DNA from: Cyclobacteriaceae bacterium
GTDB taxonomy: Bacteria; Bacteroidota; Bacteroidia; Cytophagales; Cyclobacteriaceae
Reading direction: 5' to 3'
Assembly (NCBI GenBank): GCA_026129485.1
Contig: JAHCHY010000018.1
Location: 31,996-95,995, forward strand
Length of the DNA stretch: 64,000 nt
In this document: one piece after another, positions 9,459 through 37,919 of the stretch
How the letters are laid out: each line of letters begins with the position of its first letter
How positions within the stretch are numbered: the stretch's first letter is position 1
The notes under the pieces: model-generated
What the model was told of the DNA's origin: nothing
The model's database searches: none
What the model saw: the letters and a program-made list of their open reading frames with translations, nothing else
Program-made: the position numbers and the translations under genes

Positions 9459-9836
9459 CTATAGATTATTTACTATTCTTTGAATACCATCTTTTATCAA
9501 TGCCTCATTAAAATTAACGAGTAAACCAAGCTTCAGGCCCGTTAGCCTCAGGTAAGTAAGGAGTTGCTTTTGGTGAACAGGTGCAATCGTCTCTATGGAC
9601 TTTATTTCAATAATAGCCTTCCGGTCAACGATGAGGTCGGCTCTAAAACCTAACTCCATCTTATTCGATTTATAAATAACGGGCAACTCCTTTTGACGCT
9701 TAACGGGCAAGCCAGCTTGGACAAGTTCAAAATAAAGGCATTGTTCGTAAACAGATTCAAACAAACCCGGTCCGAGTTCACGGTGTATCTGAAAGCAAGC
9801 ATTTACTATAATTTTTGATAGTTCGTTCTCCGTCAT
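9459..9836 (-). CDS. GxxExxY protein (PD-(D/E)XK nuclease-like), first copy
   Basis: 125 residues. The family-defining GPGLFESVYE (GxxExxY) is at about residues 22-31. It is followed by a PD-(D/E)XK-like core: GFRADLIVD (Asp) and AIIEIKSIE (Glu-x-Lys), then the helix-strand HQKQLLTYLRLTGLKLGLLVNF. The fold suggests a nuclease, but the substrate is not established. No secretion signal. It lies between purH and a conserved hypothetical gene and is flanked by inverted short-unit repeats. A second member occurs at 36421-36828 with similar architecture and a different flanking repeat. It is probably part of a small dispersed genetic unit. Confidence 0.88.
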   Translation of the reverse strand: MTENELSKIIVNACFQIHRELGPGLFESVYEQCLYFELVQAGLPVKRQKELPVIYKSNKMELGFRADLIVDRKAIIEIKSIETIAPVHQKQLLTYLRLTGLKLGLLVNFNEALIKDGIQRIVNNL

Positions 9837-26681: not shown

Positions 26682-29600
26682 TTATCTCTTTAACAGGATA
26701 AACCCCGTCATACGCTGGCTCCTGTTATTTTTATCGAGCACATAATAATAAGTCCCTTCTGCCAGTTCCTTTCCTGAATCGCTGATGCCTGTAAAGATTC
26801 CGGTTACATTATCATAGCTGTCTTTTTCAAATACTTTGTTACCCCACCTGTCGTAAATGCTTACACGGTTGTTGGGAAACAACGTAATGTTGCGAATGTT
26901 CAGGAAATCGTGCTTACCATTGGTGTTGGTGGTAACTACATTATAAACTTCCGGTTCGGCATCGCCTTCCCCGAAAAGATTCAGGGTGAACACAGGAATA
27001 TCGCCATTGCTGAGAATGGTAATGGTGCTGGTACGTTGTCCTAAACCGGTTGGCGCAAAGCGAATGGAAAGAATTTCTGAGTTCCCCGGATCAATAGGCG
27101 GAGGCAGTGCGCTGGCCAAGCTAAAATCTCCTGTAATTTCTATATCGGTTACTACAAGTGTAGCTGTACCGGCATTGATAATCTCCAATTCTTTTAGCTG
27201 ATCAACTCCCACACCGGTTGAAGAAAACTGAACATTGCTGCCAGTGGGAGTACCTGTGCCTTCGGAGATTATTTCAATGGCTGGTGTTGGTTCGATCCCT
27301 TCACCCGAAAGGTTAAGCACAAATACAGGTACAGATGCATTGCTGTTAATGGTAAACGTTCCGGTTCGCAATCCTGATATAGAAGGTGAAAACCGCACCC
27401 CGATGGAAAAACTGCTTCCCAAACCTATCGTTGTCGGTGAGGTTCCGGTTAGCGCAAAATCTCCCGTGGTGGTAATACCGGAAATACTGATTGGCGCACT
27501 GCCCGTATTGCTTATGACAAAGCTCAGATCGGTTGAGCTTCCTACCGATGTTGCATTATATGCTACTGTGCTGCCGTTGGGCCGGTTAGCAGCATTTACA
27601 GCTACCTGCACTATACCCTGCGGACACGACAACGCATCCCCGGTGATCGTCCAGTTGTTAGTTACACCCGTAAGAATGTTACGGGCTGATACGGCATTGC
27701 AGTACGTGCGGCCTGCTGCACCAAGCATTACATTAGGCTGTACGGTTTGTGTCGCCCATCCAATAAGCGTGGCATCGTAATTGGCGGTAGAGAGGCCGGA
27801 GTTGGAGAGCATACCGGACATAAGCGTTACGTTGCTTACATCCCAATCACCAATATTCTGGTTGAAGGATGTGGCGTTCCAGAACATTTCGTTCATATTC
27901 GTCACATTGCCCACGTTCCATCCGCCAATGTTCCGGTTGAAAGACGTGGCGTTCCGGAACATAAAATCCATATATATTATACTACTTACGTTCCATGCGC
28001 TAATATCCTGATTGAAGGAAGTGGCGCCATCGAACATAGCTGACATACTCATCACGCTACTCACATCCCACCCGCCAATGTCCTGATTGAAGGAGGTGGC
28101 ATTCTGAAACATACTTTGCATATTCATTACATTGTTCACATTCCACCCGCTAATGTCTTGATTAAAGGAGGTGGCGCCAGTGAACATAAATAGCATATTC
28201 GTCACATTGCTCACATCCCAAGCGCCAATATCCTGATTGAAGGAGGTGGCATCCCAGAACATAAACCCCATATACGTCACATTGCTCAAGTCGGGGACAT
28301 CCGTGGCCGGAACGGTCAAGTGAGTGCAACCGTTAAAGGCATGCCCCATAGATGTCCAGGTAATACTCCCCCACTGCTCTATGGTGAGTATTTTTTGCCG
28401 GTCGCCCGAGTTATTAAAATATACCCTCGGGAAATTTCCACTAATCTCCACCCGATAAGTACCCACGGAAGGAAATGTTATGGTGGCGTTACCCGTTTGG
28501 TTAGTAAGCGTTCCGTTGATCGCAGAATTTCCAACCCGTTCCCAGTAAATGTTGTAGTTATAACCTATGCCTGTAGTGGGAATGATGATCTGGTTATTTG
28601 CAGAAACTCCGGGGTTATCGGTTTTCCACGTGGTGATGAAGGGCTGGGTCGCACCTGTACCCATAAGATTAAGCGTGAACACCGGCACAGATGCATTGCT
28701 GTTAATGGTAAACGTTCCTGTTCGCGATCCTGCTACGGAAGGTGAAAACCGTACCCCGATAGTGAAACTGCCTCCCACTCCGATGGCTGTTGGTGGGGTT
28801 CCGGTTAGCACAAAATCTCCCGTGGCGGTAATACTGGAAATAATAATTGGCGCGCTGCCCGTGTTGCTTACAACAAAGCTCAGATCGGTTGAGCTTCCTA
28901 CCGATGTTGTATTGTATGTTACTGTGCTGCCGTTGGGCCGGTTGGCGGCATTTACGGCTACCTGCACTATACCCTGCGGGCACGACAACGCATCTCCGAT
29001 GATTGTCCAGTTGTTAGTTGCACCTGTAAGAATGTTACGGGCTGACACGGCATTGCAGTACGTGCGGCCATTTGCTCCAAGCGTTACATTAGGCTGCACG
29101 GTTTGTGCCGCCCATCCCATAAGTGTGGCATCGTAATTGGCGGTGGATAGACCAGAGTTGTTCAGCATGTCGGTCATGTCTGTTACATTGCTTATATCCC
29201 ATCCGCCAATGGGTTGATTAAAAGACGTAGCACCGCGGAGCATCTGACGCATACCTGTCACATTACTTACATCCCAACCTTCAAGAGGCTGGTTAAACCC
29301 CGTGGAAAATTGGAACAAGTAACCCATGTTTGTTACATTACTTACGTTCCAGTTTTCGATGGGCTGGTTGAAAGCGGTAGTCTCTCCAAACATACCAAAC
29401 ATATTGGTTACATTACTTACGTTCCAACCACTAATGTCTTGATTGAATGAAACAGCACGAATAAATAACTGAGTCATATTAGTTACATTGCTTACATCCC
29501 ACAAACCAATGTCCTGATTAAAAGAAGTGGCAATGGCAAACATCAATGACATATCTGTAACGTTTCGAACATCCCAGTTGTTTATGGGTTGATCAAAGGA

Positions 29601-35007: not shown

Positions 35008-35319
35008 TTAAACATGAAATACCCAATCTTTATACTGGCCGTCATGCGGATTGAAATCCGCACGTTTTTGAAAATGATCGTCTAATATTTCCAACTCGAT
35101 AATACGATCCAGTTGCAGGTTGCGGTAGCCTTCCTTACCACCAGCTTTCGTAAACCCGAATGTCTGCCAGCAAACCAGCACAATATGATTACGCGAAGTA
35201 GTGCAAACGCCATACGGACAAATGGTACGGGGCAAGGGTTCGCCCTCCAAAGAAATGCGGCATTGGTTCTTGCCTTCTGCCGCCAGCCAGAGCTGTTGCG
35301 TTAATTCTTCCAGGCTCAT
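35008..35319 (-). CDS. Small hypothetical protein coupled to selD (possibly WYL-like)
   Basis: 103 residues. Its ATG overlaps the selD stop by four bases (ATGA), so it is translated with selD. Sequence: a short N-terminal helix (MSLEELTQQLWLAAEGK), then strand-rich core ISLEGEPLPRTICPYGVC, NHIVLVCWQTFGF, GYRNLQLDRIIELEILDDHF. The R-N-L-x-L-D-R-I-x-E-L-E-I-L pattern resembles the WYL fold of ligand-sensing regulators, without a DNA-binding domain. The link with selenium metabolism is by position only. Confidence 0.7.
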   Translation of the reverse strand: MSLEELTQQLWLAAEGKNQCRISLEGEPLPRTICPYGVCTTSRNHIVLVCWQTFGFTKAGGKEGYRNLQLDRIIELEILDDHFQKRADFNPHDGQYKDWVFHV

Positions 35320-36350
35320 ACAATGTTTATCACGTAATCCGTTTTGGACTCACTTAGCTTGCCTATTGGCTTGAGTACAAAACCAAATGAAGTCATTGCA
35401 TACTCAAACTCCTGTTGCGATGCCGCCTCCACACCAATCAGCAAGCCGCCATTAGTTTGCGGATCGCATAAAGTTAATAATGATTCCGCCCCAATGCCAT
35501 TTACTTTCTTATCATAGCTCTGCCAGTTACGCATGGTGTTATCCGGATAGATCATTCTAGAAGTATAATAGCTTAGGTTTTCAATAAGCGGAACCGCACT
35601 GTAACTAATTTCAGCCGAAACACCACTACCTTCACACACCTCAACAAGATGGCCCAGCAAACCGAAGCCGGTTATATCGGTCATGGCTGTAACAAATTTA
35701 TACTTACTGATCTCCGCGCCAACTGAATTTAACTGCGACATGGTTTGAATGGCCCGCTCCACATCATCGGCCAAAGCGAGGCCGCGCTTTTGTGCCGTTG
35801 TAATAATACCAACGCCTATCGGCTTGGTCAGGTACAACAAATTACCTGGCCTGGCTGTGTTATTCTTTTTCAGGTTTTCTTTGGTAACCGTTCCGGTAAC
35901 GGCAAGACCGAAAATCGGCTCCGGGCTATCAATGCTATGCCCGCCCGCTAACGGAATGTTAGCTTCATTACAAGCTTCGCGTGCACCATCCAGCACACGT
36001 TGAGCCAGGTCAGCAGGTAATTTATCAACCGGCCAGCCTAATATAGCCAATGCCATTACCGGGCTTCCGCCCATAGCATATACATCGCTGATGGCATTCA
36101 CCGAAGCTATTTTTCCAAAGGTGAAGGCATCATCTACAACGGGCATAAAAAAATCTGTTGTGCTGATGATGCAGGTGCCGTTATCCAGCTCATACACCGC
36201 AGCATCATCTTTCGATTCATTGCCGACTAATAATTTTGGAAATGCTTCAGCCTTAAAATCGGAATGCAAAATTTTATCCAGAACAGCAGGAGCGATTTTG
36301 CAGCCACAACCGGCACCGTGGGAATATTGTGTGAGCTTTATTTCGTTCAT
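35316..36350 (-). CDS. selD: Selenide, water dikinase (selenophosphate synthetase)
   Basis: Makes monoselenophosphate, the selenium donor, from selenide and ATP. 344 residues. The active-site loop SHGAGCGCKIAP holds Cys15 and Cys17 with Lys18 (Cys in place of the selenocysteine found in some species). ATP-binding and Mg motifs DDAAVYELDNG, STTDFFMPVVDD, ITDVYAMGG-type SDVYAMGGSPVMAL, and TDITGFGLLGHL are present. The usual partner mnmH lies upstream on the same strand but is separated by a GxxExxY gene and repeats. No selA or selB was seen, so the selenium is likely used for tRNA modification. Confidence 0.96.
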   Translation of the reverse strand: MNEIKLTQYSHGAGCGCKIAPAVLDKILHSDFKAEAFPKLLVGNESKDDAAVYELDNGTCIISTTDFFMPVVDDAFTFGKIASVNAISDVYAMGGSPVMALAILGWPVDKLPADLAQRVLDGAREACNEANIPLAGGHSIDSPEPIFGLAVTGTVTKENLKKNNTARPGNLLYLTKPIGVGIITTAQKRGLALADDVERAIQTMSQLNSVGAEISKYKFVTAMTDITGFGLLGHLVEVCEGSGVSAEISYSAVPLIENLSYYTSRMIYPDNTMRNWQSYDKKVNGIGAESLLTLCDPQTNGGLLIGVEAASQQEFEYAMTSFGFVLKPIGKLSESKTDYVINIV

Positions 36351-36359
36351 GATATTTTT

Positions 36360-36412
36360 AACAACATAGACACATAGAGCACATAGATAAATCTAATAAG
36401 ACCTATGTGGTT
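36360..36412. repeat. ACATAG-unit repeat between selD and the second GxxExxY gene
   Basis: Three direct ACATAG units (36364, 36372, 36381) are followed after a spacer by the inverted CCTATGTGGTT at 36402-36412. It has the same word set as the longer inverted repeat on the other side of the gene, 36843-36924. The block can fold into a hairpin. Confidence 0.6.
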
Positions 36413-36420
36413 TTTATTTT

Positions 36421-36828
36421 CTATTTGTCAGGCAACAAACGAAAGTACTCATTCACGTACGTTCGCTGGCCTTCTTTAAACAAATTTGCGCAATTAAAAT
36501 TGATCAGAATTCCTTTCGGCTTCCCCAGCAATTTCATGTAAGTTAATAACTGTGCCTCAAAAACAGGAGCTATGATATCCACTGCCTTAAGCTCAACCAC
36601 TATAGAATTTTCTACGAGGAAATCACACCTCAAATCTGTTTCGACATGAATGCCCTTGTATTCAACGGGAACAAACTCTGACCCAAAATTCAAATTTCGG
36701 ATCATAAGCTCTTGCTTCAGACATTTGTGATAAACGCTCTCCAACAAGCCCGGGCCAAGGCTTTTATGAACTTCTATTGCTGCACCAACAATCTCGTAAG
36801 TAAGTTCATCAAGATATTTCTTTGTCAT
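36421..36828 (-). CDS. GxxExxY protein (PD-(D/E)XK nuclease-like), second copy
   Basis: 135 residues. Signature SLGPGLLESVYHKCL (GxxExxY) at about residues 24-38, nuclease-like core VETDLRCDFLVENSIVVELKAVD (Asp ... Glu-x-Lys), then QLLTYMKLLGKPKGILINFNC. Only about 40 percent similar to the copy at 9459 by eye, so it is an old paralogue or separate arrival. It lies between selD and mnmH, genes that normally adjoin, and is bracketed by hairpin-forming ACATAG repeats on both sides. It is oriented with the operon, and the operon may still be read through. Confidence 0.88.
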   Translation of the reverse strand: MTKKYLDELTYEIVGAAIEVHKSLGPGLLESVYHKCLKQELMIRNLNFGSEFVPVEYKGIHVETDLRCDFLVENSIVVELKAVDIIAPVFEAQLLTYMKLLGKPKGILINFNCANLFKEGQRTYVNEYFRLLPDK

Positions 36829-36842
36829 CAGGTATTATTTTA

Positions 36843-36924
36843 AACCACATAGGCACATAGAATACATAGCTTATGATTTTTGATTACTTAGATTTGTCTA
36901 TGTTTCCTATGTGCCTATGTGGTT
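36843..36924. repeat. Long inverted repeat upstream of the second GxxExxY gene, reaching into mnmH
   Basis: Left arm 36843-36869 (AACCACATAGGCACATAG... ) and right arm 36898-36924 are inverted copies with about 25 of 27 bases matching, around a 28-base loop. The right arm runs into the mnmH 3' end, and the mnmH stop (TAG at 36915-36917) and last codons are made of the repeat. Same words as the block at 36360-36412. Confidence 0.75.
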
Positions 36925-37919
36925 AATTCTTTAACAACACGCTCCACACTACCTCCGTCCCACTCCACAACTTTCTTAATCCGGTCTTTACGCTTATCAA
37001 TGCCATGAAGGTAAGCCTTATCGTAATAGGTAAGCAACACCTGTATTACGGCAGGCATGTCGCCTTGCTGTAGTTTTTCTTTGGCGAGGTTAAAATGCTG
37101 GCCGCCCAGGCGTTTTACAATCTTATGCATGATGGCGAGGAATTCATCTTTATCAGCTTTGCCATATTCTTCCACCAATCGTTTTATGCGAACTTCTTTA
37201 TCAACCTGCAACTGAATCAGCGGGCTTCTGTTCATTTGCAGCCAGAACTCACGCGGCAAAAAAATCTGCCCGATGGCAATGGACTCATCTTCCACCCAAA
37301 CGGGTTGCTGCGGATCAAGCGGAAGTATTTTTTCAAAGAGATCATTCTGAAATTGCTCCGTAGTGGGTTGCGGCTTCATGAACAATCCGCCAAACGCAGA
37401 GCCTTTATGGCTGGCCAATGTTTCCAGGTCAATAACCTGCTGTCCGCTTGCTTTCAATGCCCGAAGGATTTCGCTCTTGCCGCTACCGGTGCAGCCTGTT
37501 AGTAAAATAAGATTAAGCGGTCTGGCAAAAGATTCAAGCGCTTTGTGGCGATACGCTTTATATCCGCCTTTCAGCGCGTGTGTTTTAATGCCGGCCATAC
37601 CCACAAACTGGCAGAAGTTGTTCGAGCGCATGCCTCCGCGCCAGCAATGCACCAGCAGCTCCTTTGCCGGTGTAATTTTTTCCGCTTCGTTAATGATATC
37701 CAGCAAACGCGGGCCCACCAACCGGAAGCCGGTCTTGATCGCCTCAAGCTGGCCTTTCTGCTTGTAGTCGGTGCCTACCTGCACACGCTCCTCGTTGTTG
37801 AGCAGGGGAATATTAATTGCATGTTGTATATGACCGGATTGATACTCGCCTTCGGAGCGAACATCCACCACCGGCAAGCTTTTCCGTAATGTTAAAAAGT
37901 CATCAATGGAAACAGCCAT
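36915..37919 (-). CDS. mnmH: tRNA 2-selenouridine synthase
   Basis: Converts 2-thiouridine at the wobble position of some tRNAs to 2-selenouridine through a geranylated intermediate. 334 residues: rhodanese domain with active-site Cys92 in HCWRGGMRS, then a P-loop domain with GCTGSGKS (residues 142-149) and LETLASHKGSAFGG typical of the family. The last residues (ELTT, stop) are encoded by the invading inverted repeat, so a short native C-terminus may have been replaced. Works with selenophosphate from selD nearby. Confidence 0.95.
   Translation of the reverse strand: MAVSIDDFLTLRKSLPVVDVRSEGEYQSGHIQHAINIPLLNNEERVQVGTDYKQKGQLEAIKTGFRLVGPRLLDIINEAEKITPAKELLVHCWRGGMRSNNFCQFVGMAGIKTHALKGGYKAYRHKALESFARPLNLILLTGCTGSGKSEILRALKASGQQVIDLETLASHKGSAFGGLFMKPQPTTEQFQNDLFEKILPLDPQQPVWVEDESIAIGQIFLPREFWLQMNRSPLIQLQVDKEVRIKRLVEEYGKADKDEFLAIMHKIVKRLGGQHFNLAKEKLQQGDMPAVIQVLLTYYDKAYLHGIDKRKDRIKKVVEWDGGSVERVVKELTT

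Follow-up and report, generated by a model that had tools for sequence, protein, structure and literature searches.

The window analyzed here, a 64-kb stretch of DNA, contains a small nuclease-like gene placed between mnmH and selD and enclosed by short repeats. Along the minus strand, mnmH is followed by a strong ACATAG hairpin, then by the GxxExxY gene, a degenerate pair of ACATAG arms, and finally selD. The neighbor mnmH encodes tRNA 2-selenouridine synthase (36915..37919, minus strand; NCBIfam MnmH NF008750, 355 bits), and selD encodes selenide, water dikinase (35316..36350, minus strand; SelD NF002098, 491 bits). The gene between them (36421..36828, minus strand) encodes a GxxExxY/PDDEXK_3 nuclease-like protein of 135 amino acids, which in profile searches matched TIGR04256 (GxxExxY) with 130.6 bits (cut-off 35) and PF13366 (PDDEXK_3) with 125.9 bits (cut-off 22).

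On the upstream side of the gene, an inner arm at 36843-36869 (plus strand) and a second arm at 36898-36924 form a 27-nt inverted repeat that is 93% complementary with 28 nt between the arms, just as a sequence-only reading of this DNA had described it. Folded as single-stranded DNA, this hairpin reaches -21.4 kcal/mol, compared with a mean of -4.6 for shuffled sequences (z -8.5). The left side (36358-36413) has ACATAG in three units together with a short inverted CCTATGTGG, and by itself forms only a weak hairpin (z -2.3); the short inverted piece CCTATGTGGTTT at 36402..36413 (plus strand) is what is left of a second downstream arm. Pairing also extends across the gene: 36358-36399 aligns with 36884-36926 with 36 of 43 columns identical and a score of 49, whereas displaced-window controls gave a median of 15 and a maximum of 26. 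Because the outermost arms pair across the gene, the block has terminal inverted repeats, one on the upstream side (36884..36926, minus strand, read on that strand as TTAACCACATAGGCACATAGGAAACATAG...) and one on the downstream side (36358..36399, plus strand, TTAACAACATAGACACATAGAGCACATAG...). Profile matches and arm pairing thus confirm the earlier claim that ACATAG inverted repeats bracket a GxxExxY gene between mnmH and selD. The observation that mnmH takes its final codons and its stop from the repeat also holds, since the outer arm overwrites the 3ʹ end of that gene and reads GAA TTA ACC ACA TAG, or ELTT*. Counts of the core repeat restricted to the 64-kb window stand out only weakly (4 matches at up to 3 mismatches, where 1.3 are expected and 5 of 100 shuffles reach 4); its significance comes from the arm pairing and from other genomes.

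The window protein has G27, E30, Y33, D69, E79 and K81, which constitute the GxxExxY motif and the PD-(D/E)XK active site. Of the 156 distinct loci compared, 152 have a gene without internal stops, and G25, G27, E30, D69, E79, K81, N110 and F111 are kept in all 152 of these intact copies, Y33 in 151, Y97 in 149 and Q93 in 144; conservation of the G..E..Y residues is partly built in, since a pattern centered on them served to find about half of the loci, but this does not apply to D69, E79 or K81. In the four of nine pairs for which dS was computable, dN/dS was 0.02-0.09, with one pair near saturation. These comparisons show a protein under purifying selection, with an intact nuclease site. A predicted model (pLDDT 92, pTM 0.85) suggests a Cas4/lambda-exonuclease fold. 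The nearest PDB folds found by Foldseek were SSO0001 (4ic1; probability 1.00, E 6.5e-3, TM 0.52), which we take to be a Cas4, LHK-Exo, and lambda exonuclease; no PDB match to the model had E < 0.001, and no solved relative was found by sequence at E <= 1. QxxxY is typical of RecB/Cas4 nucleases, and the GxxExxY protein resembles the Cas4 and lambda-exonuclease enzymes in its predicted fold and its D...ExK...QxxxY arrangement. Unlike them, it is a protein of 135 amino acids encoded by a lone gene within its own repeats.

Paired short-word inverted repeats recur beside GxxExxY genes elsewhere, as a survey proposed from the single locus found. In this survey, 120 nt were taken from each side of a gene and one flank was aligned with the reverse complement of the other, with displaced windows serving as controls. 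The source genome and its relatives yielded 73 loci, of which 20 were dropped as broken or at a contig edge; 51 of the 53 kept had full 120-nt flanks, and 33 of these 51 intact genes scored at least 24, compared with 4 of 252 displaced windows. Among the best 80 of 577 confirmed loci from named genomes, 76 had full flanks, and 48 of the 76 reached the same score (2 of 314 displaced windows). The titles of the named-genome records include Bacteroidota, Planctomycetota, Acidobacteria, Chloroflexota, Proteobacteria, archaea and others, although single taxon assignments can be wrong because many of the records are metagenome bins. Chance as the source of the flanking repeats is ruled out by the displaced windows and by the permutations described below. 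Phage or plasmid cargo was likewise rejected: with the window protein as sole query, matches at E <= 1e-5 were found in 0 of 50,697 phage and 8 of 72,556 plasmid records.

The source genome has GxxExxY sequences at four positions, one of which is a fragment, and the words in the flanks differ among them: ACATAG, CGCAAAG/CGCTAAG, TATGATT and CACGGAG. One of these, a second intact GxxExxY gene, lies within the window at 9471-9821 (L001, 147 bits), and its CGCAAAG/CGCTAAG flank words form a weak inverted repeat with a score of 19.

Comparison of copies at unrelated positions delimits what belongs together. For 428 pairs of genes that lie in unrelated surroundings and encode proteins 65-95% identical, 259 of 856 comparisons of near flanks showed likeness, versus 3 of 856 for windows 400 bp away; likeness between non-orthologous copies is confined to the gene and its repeats. 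Above 85% protein identity, nearly all pairs share their surroundings and are orthologous, which indicates that turnover is slow. Exceptions are L130/L131 (92% protein identity, unrelated far flanks) and L248/L253 (88%). In several lineages, some members of GxxExxY clades are vertical genes with one-sided or missing arms.

The word from which the arms are built was compared among 158 loci, in which L026/L132 and L038/L174 are each counted twice (156 distinct). Arms scored at least 26 in 88 of the 158 loci and fell below this cut in the other 70. The more similar two proteins are, the more alike are the arms of their loci, the mean likeness being 10.6 below 35% protein identity and 33.9 above 80%; for pairs below 70% identity the Mantel rho was 0.444, a value reached by none of 999 permutations. 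Paralogues of less than 55% identity within one genome had a mean arm likeness of 10.8 (16 pairs), GxxExxY genes of less than 55% identity in different genomes 11.6 (497 pairs), and those 55-90% identical in different genomes 22.0 (73 pairs). Since paralogues sharing a genome are as unlike as genes from separate genomes, the host does not explain the word; by these alignments, the repeat word tracks the GxxExxY clade. The two arms of one locus also fit each other better than they fit the arms of relatives of at least 60% identity (30.5 versus 20.2), but only 15 of 76 loci have a pair of their own that outscores the arms of every such relative.

The site between mnmH and selD was followed in relatives. 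The mnmH gene was sought in 39 genomes, the source genome included, and found in 31, and the stretch to selD was read in 22 loci. Nine of the 22 lack the block (G001, G002, G005, G006, G007, G010, G012, G017 and G022); in eight of them the selD motif follows after 10-155 bp, and G006 was read as far as the contig end. Four loci have arms and gene whole (G000, G009, G011 and G020) and three hold remnants, namely a 3ʹ part of the gene in G023 and G013, and arms with a likeness of the first codons only in G019. Of the remaining six, three showed no selD next to mnmH (G008, G021 and G024), and in three the selD motif search gave no clear reading (G004, G016 and G018). The gap in G011 (L219) contains, beside the full copy, an apparent second copy with an internal deletion, in which the first codons are followed by an arm. 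In a genome of another genus (G043, L236), the simplest form, arm-gene-arm, stands behind mnmH. The mnmH endings supplied by the arm vary, reading ..LTT*, ..LINHIGT* or ..LIIT*.

At this one site, then, relatives may have the unit whole, lack it or keep an internally deleted form, which shows that the block is a unit and that solo hairpins can arise by internal deletion. The empty gaps in 9 of 22 loci, together with the likeness of non-orthologous copies in gene and repeats only, uphold the earlier proposal of a discrete genetic unit, and relatives do not all carry the gene without repeats. The proposal that this unit had inserted into the selD-mnmH pair stands insofar as the unit is discrete and empty gaps exist; what changes is that the insertion is old, since it also occurs in another genus, and that the pattern extends far beyond this locus. 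The block at mnmH-selD is decaying in several relatives and is not a recent arrival, a recent insertion being ruled out by the site states in relatives and by L236. No target-site duplication was found at the two sites compared: the mnmH-selD relatives are too distant, and the site of one solo hairpin (L005) holds other hairpins.

Copies of the repeat also occur without the gene. With up to one mismatch, ACATAGGCACATAG occurs at 21 sites genome-wide in the source genome versus 1 for a reversed control, and 13 of 15 examined sites lie outside open reading frames of at least 90 amino acids. Among 17 of these loci that were compared, likeness is limited to the hairpin save in three pairs: L009/L011, which have paralogous upstream genes; L007/L020, which are the same locus; and L014/L019. 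In this last pair, two ACATAG hairpins share a 123-bp stretch with the MITE-like ends GCTGACGCATCT and AGATGCGTCAGC.

Several solo hairpins sit just 3ʹ of genes, a position expected if the hairpins were ordinary 3ʹ-end signals (terminators or mRNA stabilizers) and the nuclease a settled host gene bounded by them by chance. The L005 site (around 1495-1570) provided no clean empty site in the relatives L317, L318, L319 and L321; the same two genes there enclose a different hairpin in each of the four relatives and an ACATAG hairpin in the source genome, which suits this explanation, as do the vertical clade members with one-sided or missing arms. Terminators need no shared word, yet the words are conserved with the clade and pair across the gene, and by eye T-runs precede the stem and A-runs follow it, the reverse of an intrinsic terminator. 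We therefore regard 3ʹ-end signals as a very unlikely account of the hairpins.

Across genomes, the number of repeats goes with the presence of the cognate gene. Among 390 genomes of the order, the source genome included, an ACATAG-clade gene was present in 18 of 23 genomes with at least 3 copies of CCACATAGGCACATAG versus 24 of 367 others (Fisher p = 2e-15), a count that treats genomes as independent, which relatedness violates, and whose cut for clade genes, E about 4e-38 or better, was chosen once the list was known. With at least 6 copies, which discounts the gene's own arms, the figures are 12 of 14 versus 30 of 376. Of the 30 ACATAG-clade loci, 4 were left out for want of a motif hit and one as a duplicate of the window locus. 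Repeat-rich genomes thus usually carry the cognate gene. Exceptions run in both directions: five of the 23 genomes with at least 3 repeats have no clade gene (G076, G105, G179, G341 and G406), the relative G001 has 11 copies of the ACATAG repeat with no clade gene seen, and 24 of the 42 genomes carrying a clade gene have fewer than 3 repeats. The earlier idea of a connection between gene and repeat would have fallen had the repeat been genome-wide with no link to GxxExxY genes; the repeat does occur elsewhere, but in numbers that follow the gene.

Two further words were counted. The word GTCTGAATCAGGATT reaches at least 4 copies in 4 of 39 genomes (26 in G012, 6 in G011, 5 in G025 and 4 in G009), all of which carry a gene of the matching clade (L046, with the word CAGGATT, L074, L067 and L066); outside G012, the copies are mostly at the gene itself. 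In a fifth genome with a matching-clade gene, G006 (L081), the word is a variant and GTCTGAATCAGGATT has no match. For the third word, TCACGCAAAGRCGCWAAG, G026 ranks top with 36 copies of a TCTCGC variant, as found around its own two genes (L047 and L078). Sixteen of 20 solo copies read in G026 carry the ends of one ordinary MITE; in these (L285-L295, L297, L298 and L302-L304), a TCTCGCAAAG hairpin is trapped between the MITE ends GAGTCCACTCTAAAAAGT and ACTTTTTAGAGTGGACTC and has been multiplied by the MITE. G026 was accordingly rejected as proof of hairpin spread, its copy number reflecting another transposase.

Hairpins within MITEs, both in G026 and in the L014/L019 pair, raise the question of whether the repeats in general are spread by another enzyme, be it a RAYT, an insertion-sequence transposase or the machinery of a MITE, with the GxxExxY genes as passengers or as settlers in the repeats. 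REP and TIR families with tyrosine transposases (REPtrons and TIRtrons) are indeed known (PMC3733652). Against such an enzyme, each GxxExxY clade has words of its own across phyla, paralogues of one genome differ in their words, and repeat copy number tracks the GxxExxY gene; spread by another enzyme is, in our judgment, decidedly improbable.

The gene and its repeats form one unit, and on balance we think it somewhat probable that this unit is a compact selfish element, analogous to REP/RAYT systems, whose nuclease recognizes its own palindrome. Such an element would consist of terminal inverted repeats of a short word (here ACATAG), a PD-(D/E)XK nuclease gene and solo hairpin derivatives in intergenic gaps. 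We infer recognition, cutting and movement, that is, an action of the protein on the repeat, from the clade-specific matching and the intact nuclease site. The nuclease might recognize its word-built palindrome extruded as a hairpin or cruciform, or single-stranded at replication, and the word spacing of about 8-10 nt could let repeated protein units bind along one helix face. It would then cut the palindrome and leave host repair or replication to copy the element or hairpin into other intergenic gaps, as is thought for RAYT transposases and REPs. Solo hairpins would result from internal deletion and perhaps also arise in trans. Against this model stand the slow turnover of copies, the failure to find a target duplication, the repeat-rich genomes without the gene, the gene-bearing genomes without repeats, and the vertical lineages whose arms are one-sided or missing.

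REP/RAYT systems, as described in PMC3733652, share several features with the unit: palindromes or terminal inverted repeats on both sides of a gene, a specific pairing of gene and repeat family, scattered extragenic short palindromes without the gene (seen here in the source genome), and old, decaying copies. Unlike those systems, the GxxExxY enzyme is a PD-(D/E)XK nuclease and no HUH (Y1) tyrosine transposase lies between the repeats; in addition, the arms are 6-10 nt words repeated several times, and no GTAG or CGTC tag was seen in them. MITEs and insertion sequences share with the unit the terminal inverted repeats with a gene between them and the internally deleted derivatives (G011, G019 and G023). 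However, the unit has no DDE, HUH or other known transposase, no target duplication was found for it, and its repeats vary in number and decay.

A second family of small genes has the same architecture. Genes of the four-helix-bundle family TIGR02436, which we take to contain the S23p of 23S intervening sequences and to be akin to the Avd of diversity-generating retroelements, occur in 32 of 39 genomes. Fifty loci from the source genome and relatives (L095-L124 and L265-L284) were collected and 44 kept, of which 27 scored at least 24 in the flank test, compared with 0 of 220 controls. Their repeat words, TTTGAGA, AGTTGTT, AGAATTT and AAGCTGAAAGC, differ from the GxxExxY words. A link of word to clade is suggestive only in this family, with a rho of 0.135 that was reached by 68 of 999 permutations (n = 28).

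The 23S intervening sequence of Coxiella, as described in PMC4990558, is 428 nt long and has a 28-bp stem of terminal inverted repeats, an open reading frame in the loop and cleavage by RNase III. GxxExxY units resemble it in placing one small open reading frame between terminal inverted repeats of about 28-43 nt, over a total of about 430-500 bp, and in existing also in forms without a complete open reading frame. They differ in that the unit lies between protein genes (mnmH and selD) and not in 23S rRNA, and in that the open reading frame encodes a nuclease and not a four-helix bundle, the TIGR02436 genes being a separate, parallel set. A location inside 23S was ruled out, as the exact 23S motif is absent from 264 loci (GxxExxY and other loci).

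The shared plan raises the alternative that the unit acts at the level of RNA, like an intervening sequence: the arms would pair in the transcript with the open reading frame in the loop, RNase III would trim the stem, and the protein would bind or process RNA and not DNA. Besides the Coxiella plan, the S23p-type genes with this architecture outside rRNA argue in its favor. Yet the conserved fold, as predicted, resembles DNA nucleases, the 23S motif is missing as stated, and solo hairpins and empty sites call for a DNA-level process, so that we consider an RNA-level element unlikely.

Returning to the selfish-element reading, a broader version of it can be put forward tentatively, and with more doubt than confidence. 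GxxExxY proteins could be the enzymes of new, very widespread minimal mobile elements of about 500 bp, composed of a word-built terminal repeat, a Cas4-like PD-(D/E)XK nuclease and a second terminal repeat, in which the nuclease alone, with host repair, would drive homing or hairpin transfer. The S23p-type four-helix-bundle genes could then form a second class alongside, built to the same plan from other words, and this class, if real, would explain the source of 23S intervening sequences. The question bears on a matter open in print, as PMC4990558 calls the origin of the 23S intervening sequence and of the S23p open reading frame unclear.

GxxExxY genes are widespread, yet no described function was found for them in the open-access literature. 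That literature, with most subscription journals outside its scope, also provided no description of an element of GxxExxY gene and repeats; the available portions of the articles naming GxxExxY or PF13366 say nothing on repeats, and the repeat words searched as text gave an unrelated match only. If each GxxExxY clade reads its own palindrome, these proteins would be another kind of repeat-associated enzyme beside RAYT transposases, and the many natural word specificities of so small a nuclease would also interest enzymologists. A candidate substrate adjoins most of the intact GxxExxY genes tested, so the idea is directly testable.

Elsewhere in the window, at 27832-28288, lies a tandem array with a 75-bp unit in about 6 copies, also scored as 2.6 copies of 150 bp.
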